Origin: Tridacna crocea
Lineage: Eukaryota; Mollusca; Bivalvia; Cardiida; Cardiidae
NCBI GenBank assembly: GCA_943736015.1
Contig: OX031065.1
Location: 3,293,501 to 3,357,500, forward strand
Direction: 5' to 3'
DNA length: 64,000 nucleotides
This document shows, piece after piece, positions 1,580 to 44,767 of the stretch. Position 1 is the first letter of the stretch; each line of letters begins with the position of its first letter. The notes under the pieces are model-generated. The model searched no databases and had not been told where the DNA came from. It saw nothing but the letters and a program-made list of their open reading frames with translations. The translations under genes and the position numbers were made by a program.

Positions 1580-1742
1580 GTATGCATGACAACTTCAGAC
1601 AGCATGATGGCCAAAAACCTGTCATCCTTTTTACAAACCTACCACCTTTTAGTCAGCTCCTAGCTTTAACTGTCAGGATCACCGGTACATCTAATTGCAG
1701 ACAGAGTTTAAATGGATTTCAACCTCAAATCATAAAGTGCAG
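1580..1742 (+). CDS. C18orf63: C18orf63 homologue, coding exon 1
   Basis: The acceptor CAG follows a pyrimidine tract and the ATG is at 1582. The exon encodes MHDNFRQHDGQKPVILFTN and onwards to ...IIKC, then AG, with donor gtaagg. It ends in phase 2 and joins the A at 3071 to make an Arg codon. LFTNLPPF matches the human N-terminal FFITLPDL segment. Confidence 0.8.
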
Positions 1743-4700
1743 GTAAGGTTTGCTAGATCTAGTATCTCCATCAGACAAGCATGTTTTGTGTCTTGGAGAG
1801 CTCCAGATTTATGGAGTGATTTTGATTTCAAAATTGAAAACAGAAATTATTATCCACTAAACCCAATGCTGTGGATACTCATTAGAATCGTCTCATCGAG
1901 ACAATTCGATGAGACGATTCTAATGAGTACCCACAAGATAGGGTTTTGAAGAGGAATGATTGATTTAGAAATGCAATCACTCCCTCTTATCTGGGGCTAT
2001 GCACACATACTGGTACATACTGTCTTTTCTAAATATAGCTCATACAGGACAAAGGATAAGTCATGTAACAGCTCTTACAAAAATCCTCCCCAGGCCGGCT
2101 CTGAACCTTGTATCTCTGGGTCCCAAGGCAAATGCTCTACCATCTCGCTACAAAAGCTGGCTGTATAGCAAGGTTGTATAAAATGTCCCCCTCTATACAA
2201 ACACAAGCTATACATCTATATCTATCTGTAGGATCGATAAGTATACTACATGAAGATGTTAAAGACAATCATATGGACCATGCTCTGTGAAATAAGGGCT
2301 TAACTCTTTACCAAACAACAAAATTGCAGAATGGTCCAAATGAAAGCTCTTGCAGATGACAAAATAAACGTAACTCAAAAATTGAAACTTATTTCTAGCA
2401 GGGTAGAAGACATTGTGAGAAAAGGAGAAAATGCTGGTTTCCAGCATTTTCTCCTTTTCCCACAATGTTTTCAAAAGGCTTCCTACTCGGGGTCTTAAAA
2501 ACCAGGGATTGTTTGGCAAAGGGTTAATGTGCCTGCTAAAAGATTCAACCATGTAAACCTGCACCATCTGTGCAGGCAGACATGGGTTTAAACTTTTTTA
2601 TATTTGTAGATTTGTGTATTTAAGCCCTTTTTTCTCAGAGCATAGCTCATTAAATTATGTATATACATAAAAAAATCATGGCGGGGAATCACATGACACA
2701 ACAACAACAACAATGATCGATATTTGAAAAAAATCCCCGACTTCAGGTAAGAAAAGCTTCAATAATTCCGTTAATACATGACCGATTAGAATTTGGTTTG
2801 AAGCAGAGAAGGTGGAAGGACTCCAGGGATTTGCTTGATGTGTTAGATTTTTTAAACAACACCTGATAAAAAAGTTATTGACGAGCAAACAAATTTTTTA
2901 CCCTGGATAATTTGTTTGCTTCAAACCAAATTCAAATCGGTCATGTATTAATGGAATTATTGAAGATTTTCTTACCTGAAGTCGGGGAATTTTTTCAAAT
3001 ATCAATCATTGTTGTTGTTGTTGTGTCACGTGATTCCCCGCCGTGAAAATGCTTGATGATCTTCTTTCAGAGAATTCATTTTTACAGAACCGGATGTCAT
3101 CGGGTCACCAAGTGCTGATGTACATGATAATTGTTTCTTCCTCATTGCTCAGGTATGAAGTCCTTTGATATTGCCTTTATATAAATTATTCTTGCAAATC
3201 TGCTGGAGATGGTCTCCAATCCCATAGAATTTACTGTCTTTACTGTTTACATATCAGCCATATGACCCATGCTCTGTGAATAGAGGGTTAACGCATCTGC
3301 AAAAAGTATCAACTCATGTCAGCCTGCGCAGTCCGCGCAGGCTGACATGGATTGAAACTTTTTGTTATAGATATATTTCTGTAAACCCCAAAAAAGTAGA
3401 GGGGGATATACTGGTTTCAAAGTGCGTAAACTATCTTTTCTCATAGCACCAATCATATTAAAGTTCCTTTCCCTGGTATTTTGCTAAAATTGGTTTTGAA
3501 AAATAGTAAAGGCAATTACAAAAACTAGATCAATACTTTTGAATACTTAATTAATATTATAAAGAAAAGAAATAAAAAAAGAATGAAAGATGTTAGCGTG
3601 AAACAAAGAGCATGGCAAATTAAAATTGAATGAAACTTGACAGGGCTAAACCCATTACCAAACAACAAGGTGACTTCGCAAAATTGAAAGCATTAATTTT
3701 GCACATCATAAAATAGTCTGGACTCAAAGATCTAAATTTGTTTTCGGAAAGGTAGAGTGTAGGAAAACCAGAAAAAGTTGATAACGAGCATTTTCTACTT
3801 TATCTACCATTTTTTCAAAAGTTTTCTTTTTTATTGTTGTTGAAACTCAGAAATGTTTGGTAAAAGGTTAAACTATTAGTGTCCAGCCATCCAAAGATCA
3901 CAAAAGTTCTAGACAGGCCACCTATTATCTGATTCAGTGTTTTAGAGATTAAGATCCAAACTTTTGCTGAAAAATGGCTTTGGGATACTCCCCCCCTCAA
4001 CTCACCCCATCCCATAAAAAAGTGTCCTTGAAAGATACTGAAATAGTGCAAATTGAATTTGTATAAACATGTTCAAAAGAAAAGTAGAAAATATGATTGA
4101 AATATTTCAGGCTGCTGTGATTAAATCTGGAAGAATTCAAGCTCGGATAAACAGGGTTGGCTTACAGGTATTGTTTAACAAATTGTACAATTTAGACCGG
4201 CCAGTAACCTTTTTAGCTCATTTGTTTTTGCAGAAAACATCAAAGTATTGTTACAACCATGTCATTTTAGTGATGGTTTTTTTTGTGCAAAAAATTTGAC
4301 ATTCTCTGTCATTATTAAAGACAGATATATATACAGAGTTTATGGAAACAACATACATTGAACAAGAATGATTAAGAACAGTAGAAACATTATCATCGGA
4401 TAAATCATTTAACTCTTTACCAAACGACAAAATTTTAGACTGGTTCAAATTGAAAGCATTTGCAGACGACAAAATAAAGGTGACTGAAAAATTGAAATTT
4501 GTTCTAGGAAGGGTAGAAAACACTGTGGGAAAAGGAGAAAATGCTGGTTACCAGCATTTTCTCCTTTTCCTACAGTGTTTTCAAAAGGCTTCTTTCTCAG
4601 GGGCGTCAAAAGTAGGGATTGTGTGGTAATGGGTTAAGGAATGAAGAGAATTTTATTTTTTTCATGGAGGTATGATAAAAAAAAACCTAATCACAATGTA

Positions 4701-7700
4701 TGAAATACACAAAAGTGTGATTAGGGTTTTTTTTTTTCATACCTCCATGAAAAAAATAAAATTCTCTTCATTCCTTATAATTTAATATTACAGAAATAAT
4801 TCAAACTGCATTCCTCTTCATTAGTTTTAAATCTGATGTTGGAGTTTTTAAAGTTCCTTCCACTCATATTTGTATGGCACAAGAATATAACAAGAAAACA
4901 GTTTTCAGATCCCCAATAATGAATATTAACCAATACAATGAAAGTAAAGGAGCAAAGCAGTGTGTAGGACTTGCAAAAGTAACCCTCAGCAAAAGTAGTT
5001 CCAGCTCTGCTGAAATTTTTTTTTTCATGGAGCTATGAAAAGAATTTTTCAGCCAATCAGAACTTGCCAATTTGCATGAAAACAACCGATATTAAATTAT
5101 ATTAAAATTAGAATGAGATAAAGGATATCTAATTCAAGTTATTCATATCAAAAGGGTTACCAATACAACAGGGACAGATAACCATGAAAAAATTGTCACA
5201 GTAATGCACCCTTTTGGACATAAAATTTTCACTGAAAGGTTACTGTAGTTTAGCATTGACACCTGCATGCAGTGCTATTAATTATGTGTTGTAGATGATT
5301 AATGACTAGTACATACCCTTAAATCTGTTAGTGGGAAATATCCTTATTGTACAATTTTATGAATAGTTCTCTGAGTAATGGACATTCGATTCTTAAGAAC
5401 GTTCTTTGTCTTATTCGCCAGAATTTTTTACATTTGTAAGTAACACAACTTCTGATTGGCTAAAGAATGGTTTAGCCTATCAGAATTTCTGTTAGTTACA
5501 AATTTAGAAAACTTTGGAGAATAGACTAAGAATATTCTCAAGAATGGTTGGTGAATACCGGCCCAGGCAGATCCACAATCAGACTTCATTCTCACTGCAG
5601 TCTTATCATGATCCACACTGTTCACCAAAGGAAAGTTGCTCTTGTCTTTCAAAGAGTGAAAAATAAGTAAGCTTGATAATGTGTGAAAAGTCATAACTTG
5701 AACTCTTTACCTAAACTACAAAATTTTAGACTTATTTGAATTAAAAACATTTGCAGATGACAAAATGATTGTAACCCAAATGATTTTCAGCATGTTTGAA
5801 AATATTGTGGGCAAAGGAGAAAATGCTGGTTTCCAGCATTTTCTCCTTTTCCTACAATGTTTTCAAGAGCTTTCTTTCTGTGTTTCATTAAAATTTGGGG
5901 TCATGTAGTAAAGGGTTACTAGTCATCTTTGAAGACCACAGTATATGATTCGGTCTACATTACTGGTAGGTCACACCCGCCTACGAAGTGATGCCTGAAC
6001 TGTATCAATCCTGTTTAAAGTATACACTGCAGGCTAGAATATCCCCCAACTGGAACAAAGTCGGTCAATGGTACTTACAAGGTAAGTATTTCAGTTTTAT
6101 TTCATTTAAACATATTTTTCCTACATTGGTTGACAAACAAGTCTTGCAGTTTATACTAATCTCTCTTGGTTCTACTTCATATGAGCTATGTTTAGTAAAG
6201 ACAGTATGTGCCAGTATGTGTGCAGAGCTCCAGATATAAGAGGGAGTGATGGTATTCTAAATTCATCATTCCTCTTCAAAACCCTACATTGTGGGTACTC
6301 ATTAAAATGGCTCATCAAGATGATTCTAATGAGTATCCACAGCATAGGGTTTAGTGGATAATAATTACTGTTTTCAATTTTGAAATCAAAATCACTCCAT
6401 CGATCTGGAGCTCTGTGTGTGATTTCTTGAAACTAGCTCTTGCACCAAATATGTTGGTCAGTGAACAGTCACAAATTTAAAATCCACTCCAGGAGTGTCA
6501 AACTTGGGACCTCATGATTATGAGATCTACACTCTTCCTCACTACCACCGAAAACACAGAGATGGTTTTGTCCGATTCTAGGCAGACATTTATCACCTTA
6601 CCTCCCTTGTCTTCAGCGCACTATTCTTACAAATTCTGTTATCATAAAGATCTGAGGTAAAATTTTCTGTTGACGTATAATGAGTGTTGTGATGTCATCT
6701 GTCATTGACATCATCATTTGAGCTACAGTCATCATCTGTAAATGCTGTACATTTGGCCCAGTCTAGAATTTTGTCATTTGGTACAAAGGTAAGAGTTGAT
6801 TCTGCATGCACTTGTATTTTTTCCAGGGCGTGACTTTTTGACATTAAGTGGATGTTGCAATGGTATAAGTATGTATACACTTAGTTTTTGATATGTTACC
6901 CGTCAGGGGAAAAGGGACCATCTGGAAATTCTGTGTACATCAATTAGATGAAAACAGATCAATGATAGCGCAGGTCAATCCAAGTTGATAGTTCAAAAGG
7001 ATTGTATTGTAAGGCAGAATGACCACTTTTAACCCTTTCCCAAACGACAAACTTCTGGACTAGACCAAAATGAAAGCATTTGCAGACGAAAATTCAACTC
7101 TTGCTCAAAAAAAGATGATTTTTGTCTATGATAGGATAGAAAACATTGTGGGAAAAGGAGAAAATGCTGGTTACCAGCATTTTCTCCTTTTCCCATAATG
7201 TTTTCAAAAGACTACTATTCCAGACCCGTAAAAACCAGGGATTGTTTGGGAGAGAGTTAATGCAGAAAATATCATAAAAGTGAAAAGTGTCGACGCTGGT
7301 GAGCCTGTGTAATTTGCGCAGTCTAACTAGGGTTGACACTTTGCAGTTCCCAGAAGGTCCCTATTTGCTTGATGGGTCACTTATATTTCTTCAGAAGTTT
7401 GACATTTTTCAGTGCAATAAACATATCAGGTATAGAGGATAAAGTTCTATGGATACAGTCTTGTGTTTTTTTTTTTGTAAAAAATTGACTTTTTATCCAT
7501 AGATGTAATCTGTGATATAGATAAATGAGTGGAAATCAAACTTGTTGGTACGAATATTTATCTTCACTTTACCCTTTACCACATGATCCTGGGTGATTAT
7601 GACCCTAGAGAACAAAACTTTTGAAAACATTGTGAGAAAAGAAGAAAATAGTGGTAACCAGTGTGTCACATGTCATTTGTCATTTGCAAATGCTATGACT

Positions 7701-10700
7701 ATGGAAGAGTGAAAAATTTTGTCATGTGATAAAGCGTTAAGTACATAAGAATTCTAGCATGCAGCATTTTTTTTGGTAAACTTTTAGAAATCTCATGTCA
7801 ACGTTTTTTTTTATACTTTGTGTGTGTTTTTGTAACAGAGGTCGACATTACAGTGAATCAGAGCGAGTTATTTTTCACACTGGAGGCTACAACATTCAAG
7901 ACAGCACCTTTGAAGGTAATTCATGAAAACTTCCATCAAGATATTGAATAAATGATTCAGTCCTTTGGTCTTTTTATACCCCCCAAAACTCTGTTTGGGG
8001 GGTATATAGGAGTCAGCTTGTCGGTCGGTCCGTCGGTCCGTCGGTTGGTCTGTAGCTTTTTGTCTGCTCTATTTCTCAGAAACTACTGGATGAATTTTAT
8101 TCAAACTTCACAGGTAAACTCAGTATCAAGCAGAGATGTACATATGAAATGTTGGTTATGGTTCATTGACTTTTCACTGAGTTATGGCCCTTTCATGAAA
8201 TTTCTTGTCTGCTCTTTTTCTCATCAACTATAGGACAGATTTGGTTCAAACTATACAAATAGACTCAGTATAAAGCAGAGATTTGCATATCCTATTTTGG
8301 TTATGGTTTATTTAGGTTTCATGGAGTTATGGCCCTTTGATGATTCTGAACAAATTTCTTTTTCATACTTAAATTTTGTCCGGAGCATATCTCCAAAACT
8401 ATACTAGCCAGGGTTATGAAATTTCATGGGTGGATAGATCTCATCGAGGGGAGGTGCAGAGCACAGGAATCATTACTCTTGCTAGCTTAATTTTTGAGTT
8501 ATTGCCCTTTGTTGTTTTTTTTATACTTGAATTTTGTCCGGAGCGTATCTCCAAAACTATACTAGCTAGGGTTATGAAATTTCATGGGTGGATAGATCTC
8601 ACCAAGGGGGAGTGCAGTGCACAGGAAATATAACTCTTGCTTGCTTAATTTTTGAGTTATTGCCCTTTGTCATTTTTAATACTTGAATTTGGTCTTGAGC
8701 GTATCTCCAAAACTATACTAGCTAGGGTTATGAAATTTCATGGCTGGATAGATCTCACCAAGGGGGAGTGCAGTGCACAGGAATCATAACTCCTGCTCCC
8801 TTAATTTTTGAGTTATTGCCCTTTGTCATTTTTAATACTTGAATTGGGTCCGGTGAATATCTCCAAAACTATACTATCTAGGGTTATGAAATTTCATGGT
8901 TGGATATATCTCATCAAGGGGGAGTGCAGTGCATAGGAATTATAACTCCTGCTCCCTTAATTTTTGAGTTATTGCCCTTTGTCATTTTTAATACTTGAAT
9001 TGGGTCCAGTGAATATCTCCAAAACTATACTATCTAGGGTTATGAAATTTCATGGTTGGATATATCTCATCAAGGGGGAGTGCAGTGCATAGGAATTATA
9101 ACTCCTGCTCCCTTAATTTTTGAGTTATTGCCCTTTGTCGTTTTTAATACTTGAATTGGGTCCGGTGAATATCTCCAAAACTATACTAGCTAGGGTTATG
9201 AAAGTTCATGGTGGATAGATCTGGAGCGCATCTCCAAAACTATACTAGCTAGGGTTATGAAATTTCATGGATGGATAGATCTCATCAAGGGGGAGTGCAG
9301 TGCATAGGAATTATAACTCCTGCTCCCTTAATTTTTGAGTTATTGTCCTTTGTCGTTTTTAATACTTAAATTGGGTCTGGTGAATATATCCAAAACTATA
9401 CTAGATAGGGTTATGAAATTTCATTGGTGGATAGATCTGGAGCGTATCTCCAAAACTATACTAGCTAGGGTTATGAAATTTCATGGATGGATAGATCTCA
9501 TCAAGGGGGAGTGCAGTGCACAGGAATCATAACTCTTGCTCACTTGATTTTTGAGTTATTGCCCTTTGTCATTTTTCATACTTGAATTTGGTCCGGTGCA
9601 TGCCCCAGCTTAACAACTAGGGGTAAGACGGGTGTATCTTGCGACAATTCGCCGCTCATGTTCAACTCTTACTTTTGTACTTAACCATTCTGCATTCTGT
9701 GACAAAGACCTGTTTGGTGGCAAAGGAGCTGGTGGGGGGTATGATCACGTTGAGTGATAGCTCTAGTTTTATCTAATTTGAGAAGCAGATTATGAGTTTT
9801 AGCAGTCTGTGTGTATATACCTTTACTTTGACATATATAAACTTTAACCCTTTAACAAACAACAGAATTTTAGACTGGTCCAAGTTGAAAACATATGCAG
9901 ACAACAAAGTAAATATGATTGAAAAATTGAAACTTGGATTTAGAAGGGTAGAAAACATTGTGGAAAAAGGAGAAAATGCTGGTTACCAGCATTTTCTCCT
10001 TTTCCCACACTGTTTTCAGAAGGCTTCTTCCTCTAGGTCATAAAAACCAGGGGTGTTTGGCAAAGGGTTAAAATATTGCTACAAAGTGCCAATTTAATTT
10101 ATAGTTTGCTCCATGAGTTAACCTTTCAAGTGTCTACATGAACTAAAGCAATATTGTTAGCTAGGGCGTAAGAGTATTGCATTAGCAAGGCTGTTTCAAC
10201 TAAAGTATCTGAATACATTTGACAGTGAAGACTGAAGTTTTCTATGGTCTATCCTTGATCTATAATGTCCAAAAAATCAAGCTTGTTAAACTTTTACCAC
10301 ACAGCAAAATTTTGGACCAACCCAGATTGAAACCAGTTGTGGACGACAATTTCAGAGTGGCCTAAATGACACAATTTTTATGCTCCCCGAAGGGCGAGCA
10401 TATAGTCGCCGCTTCGTCTGTCCGTCCGTCTGTCAGAAGCGATTTCTCCACAACCCTTGGAGCAAATTGGATGAAACTTCATATATTAACTCCTTGGGGT
10501 AATGCGCCGATATACTTTTGCCGGATTTTCAATTTGACTCCGTGTCATGGAAAAAAGGGGCTTAATGCAAAATTGCAATTTTTACCAATATCTCATTCAG
10601 TCTTTTGTCAGAATATCATGAAACTTCATGGTTATATTGTTTATGGAAAGTCTTAGCATGTGCCCTTGCTATTTTTAATCTGGGCATTTTTTAAGTTGAC

Positions 10701-13700
10701 GTTCTGTCATGGAAAAAGGGGGCTTCTTGCAAGATTCTAATTTTTACTAATATTTCATTCAGTTTTGGTCAAAATTTCATTAAACTTCATGGTTATATTG
10801 TTTTTTAAGAGTTTCACCATGTGCTCTTGTTTCTTTATCTATGTGTTTTTCAATTTGACCCTCTGTCATGGAAAAAGGGGGTTTCTTGTAAAATGAAAAA
10901 GGGGCCCTAATGCAAAATTGCAATTTTTACTATCTTGTTCAGTTTTTGTCAACATTTCATGGTTATATCTTGTTTTACAAGTTTCAACATGTGCCCTTTG
11001 TTTTTGCAATCTATGAATTATTAATGCGCAAATATGTCTTTCCTGGTTTCTCAAATTAAGGCTGCATCACGGAAAAAGGGGACTTCATGGAAAAAATTGT
11101 TTCTAGGTTCTCCTTTATCAGTGCTCAAACCTTTGTGAAATTTCAAATCTGAACTTGTTGGAACGTTGCCCAGGTACCTCTCTTCCTTTTTCTCAATTTC
11201 AGGCTGCGTCTCGGAAAAAGGGGGCTTCATGTAAAAAATTGTTGTATGTAATATTTAATACATGACTGCTCAAAATTTTATGAAATTTCGAATTTTTAAT
11301 TATTATTAAAAAATGCCACAAACCACACACCCGTTGTATTTATTGCAATGATCCAATACTGTCTTATGGGAAAAGGAGGCTTAAAGGGGGCTTATTGGGC
11401 TTATTGTCCTCTACAAGTTTATGTTGGCTATCTCTAAGATAGTAATTGCCTTTTCACTTCAAATTTCGGGGGGCATGAACAGGTTCTTCTAGGATAAAAG
11501 AAGTGAATTTATATCAATTTCTTATATTTTATGACAAGCACTTGTTTGGGGAGCATAACCCGTCTCTGACGGCTCTTGTTTTCTAAAAGGATTAAAAACT
11601 TTGTGGGAAAAGGAGAAAATACTGGTTACCAGCATTTTCTCCTTTTCCCACAATGTTTTTAAAAGGTTTCTTCCTAAGGGTCGTTAAAAGTCGTCATTGT
11701 GTGGTAAAGGGTTAAAGACATATTAGAAAAAAAAAAGAAATTTACCAATGTTTTTCAAGGTGACAGACCTGGATATCACAACATCAAAACTAAACAAATT
11801 TTTAATAGATGGAAGTGCTCAGATTGATCATCATGACATTGCCTCTGACTGGTGTTTTATCCTGCCAAGGTATGCTTTACGGCTTATTTGATGATACATG
11901 TATTGTTTTTATCACATAAATAGGAGCAACAGTTTTGGTTTTTATACCAGTTCTCCACAAAATGAATGTTTTCCAGGGTATAATGGAGTCAGCCTGTCTA
12001 TCCATGTGTCCATCCATATGTCCATCTGTGTACAAACTACTAGCACATGTAATTGCCTGTTTCTGTCAAAGTACCGGCGGGGGTATTAAGTCACACTCAG
12101 TGACAGCTCTAGTTACATTAGGTTTGGCTCTTTCTCTTACTATGTTTTCTTGTTTTCAGTATCATTCAAAAAAGGTACTTTTGTTTCTTCTTATCTTTCT
12201 CTATTTAATGAAAAAATCAGTCCATGTTGTAATTGTAATGCTTCCAACAATCCCATGTTTTTATGACCTTGAAGAAAATGGGGTTTAAAGCTTTACCAAA
12301 CAATCCCTGTTTTTACAACCCTGAGATAGAAGCCCTTTGAAAACATTGTGGGAAAAGGAGAAAATGCTGGTAACCAGCATTTTCTCCTTTTCCCACTGTG
12401 TTTTCTACCATTCTGGAAACAGTTTCAATATGAATTACATTTATTTTGTCGTCTGCAAGTGCTTTTGATTTGGACATGTATAAAAATTTTGCCGTGTGTC
12501 ACAGGTGAGAGAGAAAATGCTGGTGACTAGGGTTAGTCTGTAATGAAAATAATGCAAGTCAAACTAAATGAGATCTATAAGGGTATATGTCTTTGATTGG
12601 GGTTAAAAACACTATTTTTTTCTATTAAGTCTCATATAACTTGCTTTTTCAGTATGAAAAAAGGCCGTATAATCAGCATCACTCACGAGGTACCAGAAGA
12701 ATGCCCCTTCATGTCATACAAGGACCTAAAAAGACACTGGAAAAATATGGTATGCCACAAAAGTTTCTGTGCTTTTTCTATTTCTGTCAATGATAAAATA
12801 TATTTTACTAGAAATGGAGAGAAAAAAATACAGTTTGTGTTACCATAAGGAAGATTTTTATGCCAAATTACATAATCATTAGCTAGGTGCCATGTGAATA
12901 GCATGTGCATAATCATATGTTTAACGCTTTACCACACAATGATGACTTTTAATGCCCCTGAGAAAGAAGCCTTTAGAAAACATTGTGGAAAAAGGAGAAA
13001 ATGCTGGTTACCAGCATTTTCTCCTTTTCCCACAAAGTTTCTACTGTATCACTAAACAATTGCACCATTTGAGTCACAGTGCAGTTGTTGTCTACATATG
13101 CTTTCAACTTGGAAGGGGCTAAAATTTTGTCCTTTGGTAAAGGGTTAAGCCTTGTCCAGCTGAAAGACATAAATGAAACTCTAAAGCGTATGGTAAAACT
13201 CGAGTAATGTTCTTTCAATGCTACTTAGTGGAGAAAAGAATCTCCTTATTGGACAGCGTAGGTCCAAAATCAGACTGCACACTTTGTGCAGTCTGATCTT
13301 GACTTGATATACACTGTCCACAAAAGGTCAGTGGGTCGCCTAAGGGTTAAAGGCTGCTGGGATTAGATTGTCTCAGAGAAAATCTTTCTGAGATCTTTGA
13401 TCAGACTGCACACTACATAAAATCTGATTTGATCTGTGCTGGCAGTAAAAGCAACCACTACTTTTCATTGGATTGTATGGGTTAACTCATTACCTAACAA
13501 CAGATTTTTAGGTTTGTCCAAATCAAAAGCATTTGAAGACAACAATAAGAGTGACTGAAAACTTAAAATTTGTTTTGTGAAGGGTAGAAAACATCATGGG
13601 AAAAGGAGAAAATGCTGATAACCAGCATTTTCTCCTTTTCCCACAATATTTTCTAAAGGCTTCTTTCTCAGGGTTGTCAAAAAGTAGGGATTGTGTGCTT

Positions 13701-16700
13701 ATGGGTTAATGATCGATTTTAATTCTTTACCAAACAAAATTTTGTATTCAACCAAATTGTAAATATTTGCAGAAGACAAATTAAACATTGCTCAAGTGAT
13801 GGTTTCTGTCTTTGATAAGGGAGAAAACAAAGTGGGGAAAGGAGAAAATACAGTTTACCTTTTCACACAGTTTTCAAAAGGCCTTTTCTTTCAGGGTTGT
13901 TAACCCTTTTGCTGCTTAGTGAAGTTCTTTGACCTTTTGTGGACAGTGTAGATTAAGATCAAACTGCACAGAACTTGCAGTCCTATCTTAAATCTAAACT
14001 GTACGAGATATCATTTCCCAAAACATAACTTTTAAATATCAAAATTTGGGCTTTTGCTAAGGAGTTAAAAATTTCAAATTACTGGTAGTTGTTTAGCAGG
14101 TTAGTGATTAAAGTTTGGATTGTCTGGTAAAGAATCGAAGGATTTGATATTACAGTAACAGAAAAGTAATGGTGTTTGTTGGAATGTTGTTATAAAATTT
14201 TCCTGTCCTCAGTATGGTTACAGACTACCAGACAATGACGATGAACTAAACTACTATCAGATATGTTTTGGGAGTTTGGGTGGTAAAGTCTTTACATATC
14301 CTATGTTTTAGCTCTTGATTGCTTTGATTTATTCAGCAACATATCAAGCCTTGATGGGGCAACAAAATCTTAGACATATCCAAACTGGAAGCATTTGCCG
14401 ACAATTTAAATTGGTCTCAAATGATGAAATTTGTCTAGATGATATAGTAGAATACATTGTGGGAAAAGAAAAAAATGCTGGTCACAATTTGACATGAAAT
14501 TAATGTCCTCTATTACTATATATTACATGCTTGAATTGTTGTAGGAACTTCGCTTCGGCTAATGTTGTCTGCATGAAGAACTATGAGAACTATGCGCACC
14601 TTTTTCAACCCTTGAGGCGGCTAATAAAAGATTTATAGTGTCTTCAAAGAATACTTAAAATACCTGAAATAAGCATTATTTGGTTGGTTTGAATTTGAAA
14701 ATGCGTGGCAGGTGACACAGATCCAAGTTGCACTTTTTTGCAGACTGATCTTGACCTATGGCATCCACGAAAGATCTCATATTTTGACTGGCACAATAAG
14801 GGTCAAACCAGGCATTTGCCGTTAAAAATATTCTTCTGTAATTATTGTTTGCATAAAGACCAATTACAGGTCAATTTAATTGAGTAATAATGGAAGTCAA
14901 ATATTGCTAATTTTACGCTTTGCCACATAGACCCGAGTTTTAACAGCCCTCAGTAAGAAGGCTTTTGAAAACATGGTTGAATACATTACATATATTTCAG
15001 TTATATTGCGGCAGTCAGTGCAGCTATCCGTGTTTATCTTGAATTTCTGTCACCAGTGTACTTACATGATATTCTTTCCATCCACCTGCTGCTTTCCCAT
15101 ATAATAATTGTCAAAACAACGGTCACCTGTGAGAGGGGAATGAATCTTTTTTTGATAATAGCGATCAGTCCTCAGAAAATTGGCCATGCTGGGGATTCAA
15201 TCAGTAACCTCCTATTCCCAAGTCCTGTACGCTATAGACATGTTATAAGAGGTCGGCTAAACTAGTGGTGAGGACAGTATTGACAAACAGTCTGTATGAA
15301 GAACCCTCTTGAATTTTTCCTTAACCCTTGTAAACATACCCTGAGGTTTGTCTACGTGGACGAGACTTACAGCGTTTGTCACGGATAGATCCTAAACCAA
15401 TTATGAGGGCTTTTATGCAGGAAGTACAGAACAAGTTCCCTACAGTTTGTGGATTTCCTTTCAAGTTGCATTCAAAGGCTAAATTCACTGCAACAGAACT
15501 TCAGATGAGCTCACAGGTAGATTTTCAAAGTGCTTGTCTGTAATCTATAGAGTTAGATTTTAACCCTGTAGCACACGGCAAAATATTAGACCTATCCAAT
15601 TTGAAAGCGTTTGCAGACGACAATTTCATAGTGGCTTAAATGATACTATTTTTCTATGATAGGGTAGAAAGCCTGACTCGAGGCACTTTTGTGGACAGCG
15701 TATATCAAAGATCAGACTGCACAGTATCTGCAGTCTGATCTTGGATACACAATGTCCAATTTGGAGGTATATCCCCCCGAAATAAGTATTTGTTACTTTT
15801 AACTGGAAAGTTTCAATTAACCTATTCAGTTGGTTAACTCTTTACCACACGAGAAAATTTTAGACTGGTCCAAATTGAAAGAATTTGGAGACGACAAAAT
15901 AAAGATGACTGAAAAATTGAAAGTTGTTCTGGGAAGGGTAGAAAACACTGTGGGAAAAGGAGAAAATGCTGGTTGCCGGCATTTTCTCCTTTTCCAACAT
16001 TGTTTTCAAAAGGCTTCTTTCTCAGGAGCGTCAAAAGTAGGGATTGTGTGGTAATGGGCTGAAGATTGATTGGCATAAACCGTATGAAATAACTCCAAGA
16101 CCAGTCAGTACATATGCTGAAGGTAAAAATAGAATATAAATTCATGTAAACTATTTTGACCTGGGTCAGGTTAAATGATGCAGATAAAACATGTACATAC
16201 GTATATGGGTTACGTTGTCACAACTTGTATTTTTTAGGCCTCTGCCCACAATCCCCCAAATCTGACAAATAAGATGAACAGTCAAAGACCATCTATATAT
16301 AGAAGTAAAGAGGAGGTGGACAGGTTTTTAAATCCACAAAAATATGCAGATGATACAAAAGTAAACAAACAGATGCCTCCAGTTTCGGCAAATATCCAAG
16401 ACAAGACTTGTAGAGATGAGGAGAGTGCACCTGTTTCCAACGCAGCACAAATGTCTGATAATGTCAAAGGTACTCAAAATAATGTAAGACAAAGGTCTAC
16501 ATTAGCTGCTTGCAGTTCAAGTTTACATAAAGTAAGATTAATCTCTCCCAATCAAAATCAGCTGTCTACTCACACAGATTGTTACAATTCAAGGACAAAG
16601 TTACAGGTACAAAACAATACCACAGAGACACCAACTCATTTCTACAAGGATAATCATAGCCAGCCAACAGCCAGAAAGTTGTTCCCCACATTTCCTGTGA

Positions 16701-18041
16701 AAAAGAACCTCTTTAAAAACTCAGAGCCTGGCCAGATCACCAGTCAGAAAGTTGTCCCTAGATTTTCAGTTCAGAAGAGACTGTATAAACCAGTTTCTGC
16801 ATCTAGCTCTGCAAGCACAAATTTAACTGTCAGAAATCCCAGTGTTAGCTTCAATGAAGTCCAAAATGATAAACTACAAAACATCATAGTTAATGAAAAG
16901 GCCAATAAAATAACACCACGATTTTTTCAAAAGAAGCCTTATGGTATCAGTGATAAGAAAACTCTAGTATCAAGTATCATCAAATCCAGACCAGCAACCA
17001 AGGAGAAAAGTGCTCAGCCCAAACAGAAGTCTGCCAAAAGGACAAAAAGTTCAAAGGTAACATCTTTCTTAAATCTCTACCATACATTTCCATGTTTTAA
17101 CAACCCTGAGAAGAAACGCTTTCATAAATATTGAGGGAAAAGAAGAAAATGCTGGTAAGCAGCATTTTCTCCTTTTCCAACAGTTTTTTCTCTTCATTTT
17201 TTTCTGTATGCTTTTCCCCTTTATTTGTTTATTTTGTTCACAAGAATAATTAATATATTTCACAAAAATATATTACATAAAAGGGGTTGGTAATTCAATG
17301 TTCAGGGTGGTTACTGATTTGTGGTGAAAAGTCCCCCACTAAAGATGTCAACGAAGAAATATAAGGCAGATTGTTAAAATACCTGTACCATGAAAAAATG
17401 AAAAACAGATTTGATTTTTCGTGATTAACCCTTTACACCATAAGGCATTTCTATGGTATCTGTAATTGACTCTAAATAACAGCAAGGATGAAGCCATTTC
17501 TTATGTGTATATGACACCCTTTGATAGTGTAGAAAACGGTGTGGCAAAAGGTGAAATTGCTCGTCACGAGCAATTTCACCTTTTGCCACAATGTTTTCCA
17601 AAGGCTCCTGCAAGCAATGCTTTGAAATGACTATCTATGGAGTAAAGGGTTAAGAGAAACATACAGTGTAAATTAGCCATTGTGGGAAAAGGAGTGTTTT
17701 CTCTCTTTTCTAACACGTCCATTATTAAAGTCATTCGTAAGTTTGTTGTCTGCATAATATCTCAAGTTGGACAATGCCATAAATTTGACACTTGGTAAAG
17801 ATTAATTGTATTGCAAAAACATTCCCTCAATGTTTTCTACCCTTTTGAAAATTAAAATCATCATTTTGGCCACATTTAATTTATAATCTACAAATGCCTT
17901 CAATTTGGACAAGACTAAAATTTTGTCGTACGGTTCCAGTTATACCCATTTTCAAAATCATAGAGTATTGCTCATTTTTGTTTTCAGGATGTTGCTGGGG
18001 ATGCTGTGAAGAGGAAGAGGCTGAAGAAAGCTGAGGCTTGA
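1580..18041 (+). CDS. C18orf63: C18orf63 homologue, 12 coding exons, 622 residues
   Basis: Coding exons are 1582-1742, 3071-3152, 4111-4167, 5970-6081, 6827-6862, 7839-7915, 11760-11869, 12653-12749, 14213-14295, 15336-15516, 16238-17056 and 17988-18041. They sum to 1869 nt (622 codons plus TGA) and every junction phase agrees. The translation follows, in order, the human C18orf63 landmarks I remember: an N-terminal block, GRDFL, the WCFILPSMK-type block, FTYP, VCGFPFKL and PPNLTNKM. A low-complexity basic C-terminal third follows, ending in KRKRLKK, which resembles a nuclear localisation signal. Human C18orf63 is of similar length (about 685 residues). I believe the conserved N-terminal part is Pfam DUF4708; its biochemical role is unknown to me and none is claimed. 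The ATG at 1582 was chosen because the similarity begins just after it and a splice acceptor (CAG at 1577-1579) lies immediately upstream, implying an untranslated first exon that I cannot place. One intron is U12-type. No polyadenylation signal is clear. Confidence 0.87.
1797..1999 (+). mobile_element. Palindromic MITE, GAGCTCCAGAT family
   Basis: Terminal inverted repeats GAGCTCCAGAT / ATCTGGGGCT and a central perfect hairpin (ACTCATTAGAATCGTCTCAT with its complement). A second copy lies in opposite orientation at 6225. Confidence 0.85.
2276..2650. mobile_element. GCCTGCGCAG-type hairpin element, split by a MITE
   Basis: CCATGCTCTGTGAAATAAGG at the left and TTTTTTCTCAGAGCATAGCT at the right are inverted ends; the core is CCTGCACC..GTGCAGG. 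A TTAA MITE occupies 2300-2527. Confidence 0.75.
2300..2527. mobile_element. TTAA hairpin MITE (A)
   Basis: Perfect TTAA at both ends, inserted into the GGCTTAATG site of the surrounding hairpin element. Confidence 0.92.
2680..3042. repeat. Long inverted repeat, two ~130-bp arms
   Basis: Arms 2680-2811 and 2912-3042 are nearly perfect complements, including (CAA)n against (GTT)n and ends GGCGGGGAATCAC / GTGATTCCCCGCC. The loop is about 100 bp. It lies 28 bp before the acceptor of coding exon 2. Confidence 0.9.
3071..3152 (+). CDS. C18orf63: C18orf63 homologue, coding exon 2
   Basis: 82 nt, phase 2 in and 0 out; acceptor tctttcag, donor gtatga. It encodes EFIFTEPDVIGSPSADVHDN then CFFLIAQ, matching the human segment with DILTSPVS. 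The acceptor lies only 28 nt beyond a long inverted repeat. Confidence 0.85.
3252..3400. mobile_element. GCCTGCGCAG-type hairpin element
   Basis: Core CATGTCAGCCTGCGCAG with the inverted match CTGACATG. It carries the GGGTTAACGC site, here without a MITE. Confidence 0.75.
3646..3871. mobile_element. TTAA hairpin MITE (B), decayed
   Basis: CTAAACCCATTACC at the left and GGTAAAAGGTTAA at the right; the hairpin is eroded. Confidence 0.75.
4111..4167 (+). CDS. C18orf63: C18orf63 homologue, coding exon 3
   Basis: 57 nt, phase 0 at both ends; acceptor tatttcag, donor gtattg. It encodes AAVIKSGRIQARINRVGLQ, aligning with the human segment KAGKLNAYVEKYG. Confidence 0.8.
4409..4637. mobile_element. 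TTAA hairpin MITE (A/B)
   Basis: TTAA at both ends; core GCTGGTTACCAGC. Its right TTAA abuts the foldback at 4635. Confidence 0.92.
4635..4777. repeat. Perfect foldback repeat
   Basis: Arms 4635-4695 and 4718-4777 are complementary (AAGGAATGAAGAGAATTTTA to its complement at the far end) around a ~20-bp loop. A related half arm (TTTTTTTTTCATGGAGCTAT) occurs near 5020. Confidence 0.9.
5698..5919. mobile_element. TTAA hairpin MITE (A)
   Basis: Core GCTGGTTTCCAGC; both TTAA ends are mutated (TTGA and TTAC). Confidence 0.8.
5970..6081 (+). CDS. C18orf63: C18orf63 homologue, coding exon 4
   Basis: 112 nt, phase 0 in and 1 out; donor gtaagt. It encodes VTPAYEVMPELYQSCLKYTL then QARISPNWNKVGQWYLQ, matching human CLSYSLTARLAPAWNK. 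The acceptor (ctggtag) has a poor pyrimidine tract, so the 5' edge is the least certain part. Confidence 0.82.
6225..6413 (-). mobile_element. Palindromic MITE, GAGCTCCAGAT family
   Basis: Reverse-oriented relative of 1797-1999; both ends read GAGCTC(CAGAT), and the centre is shortened but still self-complementary. Confidence 0.85.
6729..6789. mobile_element. TTAA hairpin MITE fragment
   Basis: Only the right flank (CATCTGTAAATGCTG to GTCATTTGGTA) remains. Confidence 0.6.
6827..6862 (+). CDS. C18orf63: C18orf63 homologue, coding exon 5 (36-nt microexon)
   Basis: A 36-nt exon, phase 1 at both ends, between ttttttccag and gtataag. It encodes GRDFLTLSGCCN, which fills exactly the gap expected between WYLQ and EVDITV and matches human QGRDFLSQMG. 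Because it is a multiple of 3, skipping it would not break the frame. Confidence 0.78.
6898..7400. mobile_element. Hairpin element split by a MITE
   Basis: GGCAGAATGACCACTTTTAA, then after the MITE GCAGAAAATATCATAAAAGT and a GTGTCGACGC / GTTGACAC hairpin. The uninterrupted reverse-oriented relative is at 61025-61260. Confidence 0.7.
7029..7260. mobile_element. TTAA hairpin MITE (C)
   Basis: TTAA at both ends; CCCTTTCCCAAACGAC left, GTTTGGGAGAGAG right. Confidence 0.92.
7568..7740. mobile_element. TTAA hairpin MITE, internally deleted
   Basis: The left end and right tail are present; most of the right hairpin arm is lost. Confidence 0.7.
7839..7915 (+). CDS. C18orf63: C18orf63 homologue, coding exon 6
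   Basis: 77 nt, phase 1 in and 0 out; acceptor tgtaacag, donor gtaatt. It encodes EVDITVNQSELFFTLEATTF then KTAPLK, matching human NINVTETQVCLSIEAST. Confidence 0.85.
7972..9770 (+). repeat. Element with ~156-bp tandem units and (GGTCCGTC)n
   Basis: It starts TTTTTATACCCCCCAAAACT (short hairpin) with GGTCCGTCGG repeats and ends GGGGTATGATCACGTTGAGT. Units beginning GTCC(G)G.G.(A)TATCTCC lie at 8378, 8536, 8692, 8848, 9004 and 9160, then irregular copies to about 9600. A short relative is at 11934-12115. No protein is encoded. Confidence 0.85.
9844..10071. mobile_element. TTAA hairpin MITE (A)
   Basis: TTAA at both ends; core GCTGGTTACCAGC. Confidence 0.92.
10286..10378. mobile_element. TTAA hairpin MITE, left piece
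   Basis: Runs TTAA to ACAATTTTT, then is interrupted by the ~1.2 kb element; it resumes at about 11580. Confidence 0.8.
10379..11580. mobile_element. ~1.2 kb element, TGCTCCCCGAAGGGCGAGCA end
   Basis: It opens with a short perfect hairpin (TGCTCCCCGAAGGGCGAGCA) and TCTGTCCGTCCGTCTGTC, and ends GGGGAGCATAACCCGTC..GACGGCTCTTG. Inside are loose repeats of GTCATGGAAAAAGGGG plus a 'cattcagttttgtcaaaatttcat'-like phrase. It is non-coding and sits inside a MITE. Confidence 0.8.
11580..11715. mobile_element. TTAA hairpin MITE, right piece
   Basis: Holds the complete hairpin (core CTGGTTACCAG) and right end GGTAAAGGGTTAA. It ends 45 bp before coding exon 7. Confidence 0.85.
11760..11869 (+). CDS. 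C18orf63: C18orf63 homologue, coding exon 7
   Basis: 110 nt, phase 0 in and 2 out; acceptor tttttcaag, donor gtatgc. It encodes VTDLDITTSKLNKFLIDGSA and ends ...DWCFILP plus AG. The NWCYVLPS-like block of the family is split across this junction. Confidence 0.87.
11934..12115 (+). repeat. Short relative of the 7972-9770 element
   Basis: Shares the TTTTTATACC..GGTATAATGGAGTC start and GTCACACTCAGTGACAGCTC end but lacks the 156-bp units. Confidence 0.7.
12285..12500. mobile_element. TTAA hairpin MITE (A), right end lost
   Basis: Left TTAA at 12285; core GCTGGTAACCAGC; truncated near 12500. Confidence 0.85.
12653..12749 (+). CDS. C18orf63: C18orf63 homologue, coding exon 8
   Basis: 97 nt, phase 2 in and 0 out; acceptor tttttcag, donor gtatgc. 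It encodes SMKKGRIISITHEVPEECPF then MSYKDLKRHWKNM, matching human [20 protein letters not shown] with the HW pair retained. Confidence 0.9.
12920..13147. mobile_element. TTAA hairpin MITE (A)
   Basis: TTAA at both ends; left CGCTTTACCACACAATG, right GGTAAAGGG. Confidence 0.92.
13215..13480. mobile_element. AGACTGCA..TGCAGTCT hairpin elements, two in a row
   Basis: Two AT-rich elements with cores CAGACTGCACACTTTGTGCA and CAGACTGCACACTACATAAA, the first flanked by GGACAGCGTAGG / TACACTGTCC. Others of this type are at 13905-14070 and 15675-15790. Confidence 0.65.
13482..13709. mobile_element. TTAA hairpin MITE (B)
   Basis: TTAA at both ends; left CTCATTACC. A shortened copy follows at 13719-13903. 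Confidence 0.9.
14213..14295 (+). CDS. C18orf63: C18orf63 homologue, coding exon 9 (ends at an AT-AC intron)
   Basis: 83 nt, phase 0 in and 2 out. It encodes YGYRLPDNDDELNYYQICFG then SLGGKVF. The open frame runs only to a TAG a few codons past 14295, and no usable GT donor restores the frame to the next exon. The U12-type site ATATCCTA at 14296 does. Confidence 0.8.
14347..14483. mobile_element. TTAA hairpin MITE fragment in the AT-AC intron
   Basis: Left flank and left hairpin arm only. Another left-end piece is at 14912-14980. Confidence 0.65.
14985..15265 (-). mobile_element. SINE-like repeat, decayed
   Basis: Same body as 54915-55205 and 57300-57545 (TATTTCAGTTATAT.GC.GC, TGATATTCTTTCC, CTGCTTTCCCATAT). 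It ends in a reverse tRNA-like stretch (GGGGATTCAATCAGTAACCT). Confidence 0.6.
15336..15516 (+). CDS. C18orf63: C18orf63 homologue, coding exon 10
   Basis: 181 nt, phase 2 in and 0 out; donor gtagat. It encodes (T)YPEVCLRGRDLQRLSRIDP and onwards through KFPTVCGFPFKLHSK to QMSSQ. VCGFPFKL corresponds to human ICGFPIKM. Confidence 0.87.
15560..15670. mobile_element. TTAA hairpin MITE fragment
   Basis: Left third only (TTTTAACCCTGTAGCACACG to CTATGATAGGGTAGAAAG). Confidence 0.65.
15834..16060. mobile_element. TTAA hairpin MITE (A/B)
   Basis: Left TTAA intact; core GCTGGTTGCCGGC with a compensating change in both arms; right end GGTAATGGGCTGA has lost TTAA. Confidence 0.88.
16238..17056 (+). 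CDS. C18orf63: C18orf63 homologue, coding exon 11 (large)
   Basis: 819 nt, phase 0 at both ends; acceptor tttttag, donor gtaaca. It opens with ASAHNPPNLTNKMNSQRPS, matching human KPPNLTTKKM, and continues as a long Ser/Lys/Asn/Gln-rich low-complexity region with two related segments, ARKLFPTFPVKKNLFKNSEP and VVPRFSVQKRLYKPVS. It looks intrinsically disordered. Confidence 0.88.
17063..17200. mobile_element. TTAA hairpin MITE fragment
   Basis: Left half plus hairpin; begins 7 bp after the donor of coding exon 11. Confidence 0.7.
17425..17653. mobile_element. TTAA hairpin MITE (D)
   Basis: TTAA at both ends; core GCTCGTCACGAGC and arm GTGGCAAAAGGTGAAATT. A decayed relative of the main type occupies about 17675-17935. 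Confidence 0.92.
17988..18041 (+). CDS. C18orf63: C18orf63 homologue, terminal coding exon
   Basis: Acceptor ttttcag; 54 nt in phase 0 encoding DVAGDAVKRKRLKKAEA and TGA. The basic run KRKRLKK resembles a monopartite nuclear localisation signal. The 3' UTR presumably continues into the tandem repeat that follows. Confidence 0.8.
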   Translation, partial: DVAGDAVKRKRLKKAEA

Positions 18042-18059: not shown

Positions 18060-19045
18060 TAATTTGACAGTCTGAAGCAGGTTTGCGTTGTGTTAGGATT
18101 CTTGAAAACTCTGGTTTACACCCTCTAAAATTTTTGAAAACCTAGGTTCATTTTGTGCTATGTTATTGAAGACCTAGATTCTCAGTGTCCTTGGTTCTTG
18201 AATATCTTGACTCACAACATTTAAGATGCTTGAAAACCTAGGTTCTCATTGTTCTTGGTCCTTGAATACCTAGACTCAAATAATTTTAGATTTTTGAAAA
18301 CCTAGGATCACTTTGTGCCATGTTATTGAAGACCTAGATTCTCAATGTCCTTGGTTCTTGAATACCTTGGCTCACATCATTTTAGATTTTTGAAAACCTA
18401 GGTTCTCGTTGGTTTTTTATACCTAGCCTAGCATTTTTTTTTTTTTTTCTTGAAAAAACTCGTGTTAGATTCTTGAAAACTCTGATTCACATCCTCTTGG
18501 ATTTTTGAAAACCTAGGTTCACTTTGTGCCATGTTATTGTAGATCTACATTCTCAGTGTCCTTGATTCTTGAATACCTTGGCTCACATCATTTAAGATAC
18601 TTGAAAACCTAGGTTCTCTGTGTTCCTGGTCCTTGAATACCTAGGTTCACACCATTTTAGATTTTTGAAAACCTAGCTTCAGTGTGTTCTTTTATACATA
18701 GGCTAGCATATTTTTTCTTCAAAAACCTTGTCTTAGATTCTTGAAAACTCTGGTTCACTCTCTCTTAGATTTTTGAAAACCTAGAATCACTTAGTGCCAA
18801 GTTATTGTAGACCTAGATTCTCAATGTCCTTGGTTCCTGAATACCTTGGCTCACATCATTTTAGATGCTTGAAAACCTAGGTTCACATTTTATTTTAGAT
18901 TCTTGAAAACCTGTGCTCACATGGTCTCAGAATTTTGAAACCCTGTTTTTGAAAACTTAGGTTCTCATTGTCCTTGGTTCTTAAATACATGTACCCAAGC
19001 TCACATCATTTTTGATTCTTGAAAATCTAGGTTCAAATGGTGTTA
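18060..19045 (+). repeat. Degenerate ~33-bp tandem repeat
   Basis: About 1 kb of variants of TTCTTGAAAACCTAGGTTCA with higher-order alternation (ATTGAAGACCTAGATTCTCA every second or third unit). It begins just after the C18orf63 stop codon, so it is probably 3' UTR or flank. Confidence 0.85.
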
Positions 19046-19051
19046 AATTTC

Positions 19052-19275
19052 GAAACCCTTTACCACATAATCACGACTTTTAATGCCCTTGACAAAAAAG
19101 GCTTGTGAAAACATTAGGGAAAAGGAGAAAATGCTGGTAACCAGCATTTTCTCCTTTTTCCATAATGTTTTCTTCCCTTAGAAAAGTTTCAAATTTTGGT
19201 GAGCATTTATCTTGTCATCTGCAAATGCTTTCAATTTGGACAAGTCTAAAACTTTGATGTCTGGAAAAGAGTTAA
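19052..19275. mobile_element. TTAA hairpin MITE (A)
   Basis: Core GCTGGTAACCAGC; right GGAAAAGAGTTAA. Confidence 0.85.
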
Positions 19276-34400: not shown

Positions 34401-37400
34401 ATTTTTGAGTTAGTGCCCTTTGTCGTTTTTCATACTTGAATTTTGTCCGGTGCATGCCCCAGCTTTACAACTTGGGGTAAGACGGGCGTATCTTGCGACA
34501 ATTTGCCCCTCTTGTTTGGTGCTTGTATTTGATTCCAGCAGTGTGAGAAAATTTGAAATAACGTGAGACCGAAGGTCAAGCTAGATGTCAAAATTTTCTC
34601 ACGCTGAGAAGAAGCAAATACCAGCACCAGGTAAATCACCGTAGTATAATATTCCTTTTACAAATATGCCTACACTTTTCGACAACAAAACACTGAAAAT
34701 AATTTACAGCATATTCGAAAACGATAAAAAATGCTACAGCACATTGTTGGTTATCTCTTTACCAGACGACAAAATACTAAGACTTGTCAAAATGATGAGC
34801 ATTGGCAGACAAAAACTTAAATATTCAACTACTAAATTGTCCATCTGTGATCTCAACATCACAGGGTGCTCTGCACAAACAACAGAGAATTCTTCAAGAA
34901 CAGAACAGAATATGGCTCACATGATGGACGACAAAATTTTACATTGGTCCAAACTGAAAGCACTTGCAGACGACAAAATAAAAGTAACTCAAAAGTTGAA
35001 ATTTGTTTCCAGCAGGGTAGAAAACATTGTGGGAAAAGGAGAAAATGCTGGTTACCAGCATTTTCTCCTTTTCCCACAATGTTTTCAAAAGCTTCTATCT
35101 CGGGGGCGTCATAAGTAGGGATTCTGTGGTAATGGGTTGAGAGAGGAAAAAAATTTGAAACAATGAGAACAAGTTGGTTTCCAGAATTTTCCCTTTTCCA
35201 AAATTTGTGATTATGTGCTAAAAGGTTTATTAGATGAGCCAGCAGTATAAAGCAGCACACAGAATGAAGAACATTCTCTTACCTGGCCTTTACCAATGCT
35301 GGCAATATTTCCGAGCCCTCGTATACACATCTGTCTGACAACATGTGATGAGTCCACTAGTCGACCCAATAAACTGTTCATGACTAATTCCACCAAACTG
35401 TCGTCATCCATACACTTCTGGTTTACCAACTGTAACAGAAAACATCGAAACGTTCTTTCTTTATCAGCCATGCTCCGGTAAAAGGGGCTTTATCTCAACC
35501 ACAAAACAAAAATGTACACATTTGCTGATGAAAAGTAAAAATGTGGCTCAAATGATAGAATTAGTCCTGAAAAGAGTAGAAAACATTGTTGGAAAAGGAG
35601 AAAATTACAAGCATTTCTCCTATTCCCCCTATAGTTCTCACACAAATATAAATATGCATTGGCTTAGAAATTTATTATTCACGAAATTTAAAACCAGCAA
35701 TAATACCCACTTTTACAGTATTCATTGGCCATTAAATTTGGCATCTATATTAGACAAAGCTTGGCTACATAGGAATGCCTTTAAGACCATCTGATAGAGA
35801 TCTTTGAAGCTGACAAATTCAAAGAAGATATGTATGTGTAGGGGCATATGTTGCCAGGTGTGATTAGGCATTTGTGGATGACAAAGGTGGCTCACACGAC
35901 AAACTTTGTCCTTGGAATAGTAGACAAGAGGGCCAAGATGGCCCTGGATTGCTCACCTGAATTTCCGAGAGAACCATAGCCATTTCTTTCAAAATGTAAT
36001 CAGCCCTTTCAGAGAAGAAGAATTTTTAAGAATTTCTTCAAGTCTGTATAGTGTAAATAGCGCCCAGTCATCAGAGCCATGTTTCTTGATGGATCAAAAT
36101 TTCTAGAGCAATTTTTGAAAAGTTTAGCTAAGAAACATTTCTGAGAAATTATTTCAAAATCTGATCAGCGGTTTCAGAGAAGATGAATTTTTAAGAATTT
36201 CTTAATTTCCCTATAGTGCAAGTAGCCCCCATTCACCAGAGCTGTGTTTCTTGACGGATCAAAATTTCACGAACACTTTTTGGAAAGGGTCATTCAAGGA
36301 ACATCCCTGTGAAATTATTTCAAATTCTAACCAGCTGTTTCAGAGAAGAAGAATTTTTAAGAATTTCTTAATTTCTGTACAGTGCAAGTAGCTCCCATTC
36401 ACCAGAGCCACATTTTTTGACGGATCAAAATTTTACGAACAAGTTTTGAAAAGGGTCACCCAAGGAACAATCCTGTGAAATTATTTCAAAATCTTACCAG
36501 CGGTTTCAGAGAAGAAGAATTTTTAAGAATTCCTTCATTTCCCTATAGTGCAAGTAGCCCCCATTCACCAGAGCCACATTTTTTGACGGATCAAAATTTT
36601 ACGAACAATTTTTGGAAAGGGTCATTCAAGGAATATCCCTGTGAAATTATTTCAAATTCTGACGAGCCGTTTCAGAGAAGAAGAATTTCTAAGAATTTCT
36701 TAATTTCCGTATAGTGCAAGTAGCCCCCATTCACCAGAGCCACATTTTTTGACGGATCAAAATTTTACGCACAATTTTTGAAAAGGGTCACTCAAGGAAC
36801 AATCCTGTGAAATTATTTCAAAATCTGACCAGCGGTTTCAGGGAAGAAGAATTTTTAAGAATTCCTTCATTTCCACATGTGTATGGTGCAAGAAGCCCCC
36901 ATTCACCAGAGCCACATTTTTTGACGGATCAAAATTTTACGAACAATTTTTTTAAAGGGTCACCCAAGGAACAATCCTGTGAAATTATTTCAAAATCTGA
37001 CCAGCGGTTTCAGAGGAGAAGATTTTTAAAGAATTCCTTAGAAAATTCCATTTCGTTGCCATGGCAACCAGAGTTTTTGATGGAATCAAATTCTGTGAAC
37101 AACTTTTAAAGAAGACCTCCCAAGGAACATTCCAGCCAAGTTTGGTCCAAATCTGCCCAGCGATTTAGGAGGAGTTGATGTTTAAAGAATTGTTGACGAC
37201 GCACGACGCACGACGCACTGACGGACGACGGACACCAGGTGATCCTAAAAGCTCCCCTTGAGCACGTTGTGCTCAGGTGAGCTAAAAATATTATGAGAAA
37301 ATGCTGGTTACGAGCATTTTCTTCTTTTCCAACAATGTTTTCAAAGGGCTTCTTCCTCTGGGTGTTGTAAACAAGAGGGCTATGATGGCCCTGTATCGCT

Positions 37401-43400: not shown

Positions 43401-44767
43401 ACCAACATAAGAAATGATTTCTGGATTGATGTTTTAAAATCTTTTATGGTATTTATCTCTAAATGTAGTTTTACAAAGCTGCTGGATGTAGTTAACATGC
43501 CTCTGTTTTTTAATAGCAATATTTTGGTAGATTCTAAGCACATTTATAATAAAATATTATACGATTGTGGTATAAGATATGTAAAGGACCTGTTAACTCA
43601 TTACCACACAAGACAATTTTGGACTGGTCCAAATTGAAAGCATTTGCAGATGACAAAATGAAGGTGACTGAAAAGTAGAAATTTGTTCCAGAAAGGGTAG
43701 AAAACACTGTGGGAAAAGGAGAAAATGCTGGTTACCAGCATTTTCTCCTTTTCCCACAGTGTTTTCAAAAGGCTTCTTTCTCAGGGGTGTCAAAAGTAGG
43801 GATTAAGTGGTAATGGGTAAAATGTAGATGGAAGTTTTAAAAACTGGTTGGACATAAAAACAATGACTAGAAACAAAGTGAATTTTTTAAATTTCTATAG
43901 CATTACAAGATCAGTTAAAACTTTCCTTTCAAAAAATCACATTTTGATTAAAAAAGATGCTTTAAAAGGATGTCATAATCCTTCTATTAGTTGTTATTTC
44001 TTTCATATGCTTACTAAAAGGAACATAAATAAACATGTTTATAACACTTTGACACACAACGATGAAATACCTTCGAGTAGTGGGACTCATTATATAACAA
44101 CATAAATATAGATTGGAAGCAAGTTAATGGAAATGTGTTTAAATGCACAAAAAACACTTATACACAGTGGTTTCAAACAAGAATAATACATAGAATAATT
44201 CCAACAAATTCTCTGCTTTTTAAAATGAAATTGATTGATACTAACTCATGTACATTTTGTAAACGATATGAAGAAACTATTCTACATCTATTTCATGACT
44301 GTGAACACACCAAATCATTAATTAATAATATAGCAACAATTTTAAGTACTTTTGACCATACACTGCAAATTGATAGTCAAACTTTACTTTTAGGCACACG
44401 TACATCAAACGTACCATTAGACAGGCTACTTTTAGAACTTAAGAAATATATTTATCACTGTAGGAATAAACAAAAAATACCCTCAATGATCGGCTTTAAA
44501 AATACTTTAAACTTAACCTTGAATATTCATAAATGCACAAACACACATGAAATTGACAAATGTCACATGACAAATGTAGAACATGTTTATCAAAGTCTCC
44601 TATTGCCAGTATAGTGTACAGGTAGTAAATATTAACGAATTTCTATAAAATTTCTGAAAGATTCCAGTTTCTTTACTCCATATTAACATATCCACTCACC
44701 CACACACACACAAACACACACACACACATACTTACATCTATTTCATGTTTTTCTACCCTGATTTCTG

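Follow-up and report, generated by a model that had tools for sequence, protein, structure and literature searches.

Introduction

Animal U12-type AT-AC introns have a donor consensus ATATCCTT and a branch site consensus TCCTTAAC, and those shared between fly and human in STX6, PHB2 and KCMF1 combine an ATATCC donor, TCCTTAAC and an AC end with a non-zero phase and a position as the lone minor intron among major ones (available text of PMC2831892). The same source describes the U2-type AT-AC introns of sodium-channel genes, which share these termini and carry a G at +5. For U12-type introns, a distance of 11-13 nt from branch point to acceptor has been given as the optimum, and either of two A residues in the branch site may serve (PMC3584512, in part). 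Minor introns are also biased away from phase 0, which is a tendency and not a requirement (PMC10639083; the general phase bias is found in PMC7367187 as well, both in part). Minor introns are rare in human, with a density of 0.276%, and about 26% of them are of the AT-AC kind, while molluscs are relatively rich in minor introns (PMC10639083, same excerpt).

Here, we analyze an intron of 1040 nt in the C18orf63 homologue of the bivalve Tridacna crocea, located at 14296..15335 on the plus strand of a 64-kb window (the whole stretch of 64,000 nt under analysis, to which all positions refer). Like the introns of STX6, PHB2 and KCMF1, it has the ATATCC donor, TCCTTAAC, the AC end, a non-zero phase and only major introns as neighbors; it differs from them in its host, C18orf63/DUF4708, in an A at +8 and in a donor that is repeated in register at the next exon. 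With the sodium-channel introns it has the termini in common, whereas its +5 position is a C and it possesses a U12 branch site. Judging from the sequence, we consider it very probable that 14296-15335 is a U12-type (minor) AT-AC intron within the C18orf63/DUF4708 gene.

Results

A C18orf63 homologue with 12 recognised exons

The C18orf63 homologue was rebuilt from the sequence as 12 recognised coding exons on the plus strand, spanning 1653-18041. Exons 1-8 (1653-1742, 3071-3152, 4111-4167, 5970-6081, 6827-6862, 7839-7915, 11760-11869 and 12653-12749) are separated by GT-AG introns. They are followed by exon 9 (14213..14295), which reads YGYRLPDNDDELNYYQICFGSLGGKVFT, ends in phase 2 and is backed by the open joined frame and the DUF4708 scan, and by exon 10 (15336..15516), which completes the T, continues with YPEVCLRGRDLQRLSRIDPKPIMRAFMQEVQNKFPTVCGFPFKLHSKAKFTATELQMSSQ and is backed by the open joined frame. 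Exon 11 (16238-17056) and exon 12 (17988-18041), the latter including the stop, again border GT-AG introns. Joined, the 12 exons yield a coding sequence of 1,798 nt with a single frame open to the stop, and 10 of the 11 introns are GT-AG, the sole exception being 14296-15335. The joined protein through exon 10 scores 243.2 bits against PF15813 (DUF4708; cut-off 27) and covers profile positions 29-273 of 274. As a lead only, we used an unverified human C18orf63 query. Its matches to parts of exons 4, 7, 8 and 10 form one linked set (E about 3e-24), and exon 9 matches it on its own with E 0.003; exons lacking a match to it were placed by eye and by their open frame.

Searching the animal's own genome (1.05 Gb) for DUF4708 returned two matches, both within the C18orf63 homologue. 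At the amino end, the window's start and 7 kb upstream gave no convincing match for the true first exon. Relatives of the gene were sought in collections of viral, bacterial and archaeal contigs, from which little is expected for an animal gene, and none was confirmed among the 5 pattern matches in viral contigs or the 24 in bacterial/archaeal ones. By eye, degenerate tandem-like repeats occupy 8300-9600 in intron 6 and 18060-19060 just past the gene's stop.

Splice sites, spacing and phase of the predicted AT-AC intron

The intron starts with ATATCCTATG and ends with TTTTCCTTAACCCTTGTAAAC. Its donor boundary is GTCTTTAC/ATATCCTATG at 14296 (the slash marks the splice point), its end is GTAAAC at 15335, and the next exon opens with ATACCCTGAGG, so that joining 14295 to 15336 produces GGKVFTYPEVCLRGRDLQRL in an open frame. 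The U12-type 5' splice site ATATCCTA (14296..14303) agrees with ATATCCTT at 7/8 positions, the only mismatch being +8, an A where the consensus has T. The branch consensus can be extended beyond TCCTTAAC by a leading T to TTCCTTAAC, and this longer motif is present exactly (9/9) at 15317..15325, its presumed branch A being 15324. The terminal AC (15334..15335) follows 11 nt past that A, inside the published optimum. The initial annotation had thus located the donor, the branch site and the terminal AC at 11 nt correctly. The intron is in phase 2, in keeping with the tendency of minor introns to avoid phase 0. The last 20 nt before the acceptor dinucleotide contain 15 pyrimidines, the branch site counted in; several of the GT-AG introns here, which range over 9-16, have no fewer.

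Since identical bases flank both junctions, the splice point can slide from 2 nt to the left to 3 nt to the right and yield the same mRNA. Among these six equivalent placements, AT-AC ends occur at 14296/15335 only, and there is no placement with GT-AG or GC-AG ends; as all six give one mRNA, reads alone could not fix the exact splice base. Retention of the intron leads to a TAG stop codon at 14309..14311 on the plus strand (ORF 14159-14311).

Motif frequencies and chance expectation

To put a number on coincidence, we took the motif counts of the window itself, over both strands (128,000 places) and with the present case contained in each count. There are 48 AT donors matching at least 7/8, 20 branch sites matching at least 8/9 with an AC 10-14 nt on, and 2 exact branch sites with an AC at that distance. 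From these counts, the number of frame-compatible donor/branch pairs that chance would produce in 54 x 100 places comes to about 1e-4, or to about 1e-5 if the branch site is to be exact; extending the former figure to the 54 x 330 places enumerated below raises it to about 3.5e-4. Real counts matter for this estimate, since TTAACCCTT, a source of part of the branch motif, abounds in the window, with 19 places on the plus strand (including the branch site of 14296-15335) and 20 on the minus strand. The 48 donors compare with a mean of 58 in 20 first-order Markov windows, and the 2 exact branch sites with a mean of 1.05. The single motifs are therefore not enriched, and it is the pairing, the spacing and the frame that carry the weight.

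The one other exact TTCCTTAAC in the window, at 4641 on the minus strand, runs by eye into an apparent local-repeat end. Within the gene, the best branch-like sites at the 10 GT-AG introns reach 5-7/9, as against 9/9 at 14296-15335. A U12-donor-like score is not exclusive to this intron, however: the GT-AG intron at 11870, which served as a control, has the donor GTATGCTT with 7/8 to GTATCCTT, but it shows a G at +5 and its best branch-like site reaches 6/9.

Other elements were noted in the window. The core of a palindromic repeat, GGAGAAAATGCTGGTTACCAGCATTTTCTCC, is found in 47 copies (up to 4 substitutions) throughout the 64 kb, from 979 to 60070, and seems by eye to lie inside a larger element with ends like TTAACCCTTTACCA. 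On the minus strand, exon-like ORFs at 35211-61528 resemble a protein with maestro HEAT repeats (MROH-type). HEAT_Maestro_2 is matched by 61232-61528 with 41.1 bits (cut-off 27), 59262-59552 (20.0 bits) and 35211-35489 (HEAT, 19.8 bits) stay under the cut-off, and the domain scan of 54692-54964 gave no match. On the plus strand, 40597-43637 contains ORFs of the non-LTR retrotransposon type, starting with an endonuclease domain at 40597-41625 (62.9 bits) and continuing with ORFs that look like reverse transcriptase by eye.

Minor-spliceosome snRNA genes

The same genome encodes the RNAs on which removal of such an intron would depend, namely U6atac (90.1 bits; Rfam gathering threshold 33), U11 (91.2 bits; 39), U12 (105.4 bits; 53) and U4atac (93.9 bits; 53). 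The searches for these four RNAs had no match in any of 14 control genomes, and the Rfam scan of the 64-kb window returned 0 matches. In pairing registers that were chosen from the known pairing and not searched for, the animal's own U12 pairs 9/9 with TTTTCCTTA, leaving the branch A bulged before a C-G pair closes, and its own U6atac and U11 each form 5/6 pairs with donor positions +4 to +9, the mismatch falling on +8 and one of the U11 pairs being a wobble. Weaker copies exist as well, perhaps pseudogenes: a second U6atac-like copy (L006, 1501-1624; 39.7 bits) and three U11-like matches (L008-L010; 42.5-47.3 bits), one of which overlaps the best U11.

Alternative joins and competing explanations

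We enumerated 17,820 donor/acceptor pairs, with the last exon base at 14255-14308 and the first exon base at 15100-15429. Of those, 1,647 keep the frame free of stops, 16 of them being GT-AG and none GC-AG, and the statement of the initial annotation that no GT-AG join preserves the frame was accordingly wrong as worded. At first sight, these 16 joins leave room for a U2-type GT-AG intron that uses a weak donor close by, for instance 14304/15408 or 14287/15346 (AAA/GTCTTT to GAG/GTT). The former even retains FTYP through ACATATCCT and scores 235.3 bits, but its donor matches at 3/9, its TYP is kept by reading through the AT-AC donor, and the stretch that follows is lost. The donors of all 16 joins are poor (3-5/9, compared with 5-9/9 at the gene's ten GT-AG introns), and Pfam scores, obtained for 7 of the 16, range from 217.0 to 235.3 bits, 8-26 below the AT-AC join (the 9 unscored ones include 14264/15389, 14282/15389 and 14287/15421). 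We rejected the GT-AG alternatives for their weak donors and, as regards the 7 of 16 scored, also for their lower profile score; given that such an intron would moreover leave the U12 motif pair without explanation, we regard it as very unlikely. The AT-AC join, with its 243.2 bits, is the best among ten joins and truncations scored against DUF4708, the others lying at 192.8-235.3 bits, among them the read-through to the stop at 14309-14311 (234.1 bits) and the form without exon 9 (192.8 bits). Two other AT-AC joins outside these ten forms, 14260/15340 and 14260/15367, keep the frame with a 6/8 donor and lose exon-9 residues including FTY. As for the conserved FTYP segment that the intron had been said to restore, the 14295/15336 join does produce it in an open frame, and its conservation draws on the DUF4708 score and on the unverified human C18orf63 query, which has FTYP at the corresponding place.

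The AT-AC termini alone do not decide the class (PMC2831892 and PMC3584512, each in the available text), and a U2-type AT-AC intron as in sodium-channel genes could have the same ends. We give this explanation next to no probability, the least of all those considered, since +5 is a C here and a G in the U2-type AT-AC introns described (PMC2831892, available text), and since an exact U12 branch site stands at 11 nt. Finally, the region is rich in repeats, and a decayed gene copy or an assembly error might mimic an intron end in a non-working gene. Against this speak the open frame across 12 exons, the good splice sites elsewhere in the gene and the fact that the two DUF4708 matches of the genome both fall at the C18orf63 locus, which together make a non-working gene extremely unlikely, if slightly less so than a U2-type AT-AC intron.

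A T-Y-P look-alike across the donor

The initial annotation had also pointed to a donor that mimics the T-Y-P residues encoded at the next exon, and this mimicry is real. The sequence ACATATCCT (14294..14302, plus strand) spells T-Y-P across the splice site and is an in-register near-copy of 15334-15342: the last 2 exon and first 7 intron bases (ACATATCCT) are identical at 8/9 positions to the last 2 intron and first 7 exon bases (ACATACCCT), while the same comparison at the ten other introns of the gene gives 2-5/9. Matches to ATATCCT of at least 6/7 occur at 7 of 1,791 coding places (the present one among them) and at 106 of 63,993 places on the plus strand of the window. For a site named in advance, this would be a coincidence of about 1 in 300 to 1 in 600; the TYP site was not named in advance but picked as outstanding. 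Most likely, the look-alike is a by-product of the resemblance between the U12 donor ATATCCT and the Tyr-Pro codons TAY-CCN, probably because Thr-Tyr-Pro codons split in phase 2 (AC/A TAY CCN) resemble such a donor.

It is tempting to speculate that the ACATATCCT/ACATACCCT repeat is instead a remnant of intron gain, in which an insertion duplicated a TYP-encoding stretch that was at the same time a latent U12 donor. The 5' splice site would then derive from one of the copies, and the other would still encode TYP and supply the terminal AC. The junction identity, set against that at the ten other introns, and the rarity of ATATCCT-like places in the coding sequence would fit such an origin, which, if true, would be the traceable birth of a minor-spliceosome intron. 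Yet the likeness of the donor to TAY-CCN codons suffices without any gain, and the case was selected for standing out, so that we think intron gain unlikely. Pieces of local repeats lie inside the intron at about 14360-14485, 14910-14975 and 14988-15185, as judged within the window. A transposon origin of the intron was considered and found no support within the window, where, among the 45 of 141 matches listed, only the self-match reaches both ends.

Discussion

The reading of 14296-15335 as a U12 AT-AC intron, first put forward in the initial annotation, is supported by near-consensus sites, their spacing, the best DUF4708 score and the presence of the snRNA genes. The motifs and their spacing, the open frame, the fit to the profile, the snRNA genes and the capacity for base-pairing are all directly observed, and from them we infer that the intron is spliced out of the RNA. 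In this process, the U11/U12 di-snRNP would bind the donor ATATCCT via U11 and the branch site TTCCTTAAC via U12 (PMC3584512, in part). Exon joining would take place at the AC 11 nt past the branch A and result in VFT/YPEVCL, U6atac having by then, as the pathway is commonly understood, taken over the donor.

In the literature searched, C18orf63 and U12 are not named together in the main text of any paper (supplements lay outside the search), and DUF4708 is named in none. Of 27 papers that name C18orf63, none has splicing in its title (titles only), and no paper combines the subjects of U12-type introns, intron gain and target site duplication. Published intron tables that list C18orf63 in other animals may exist already. 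We are confident that the intron is a newly recognised instance of a familiar class, convincing but not surprising, and it leaves general understanding unchanged.

Gene finders that assume GT-AG introns would misannotate the C18orf63 homologue, and the read-through mimics the correct residues over three codons before it runs into a stop, so that databases could easily come to include the DUF4708 protein in a truncated form. Beyond this, the locus adds one well-supported case to the minor introns and makes it possible to test in concrete terms whether an ancient U12 intron is present in C18orf63.
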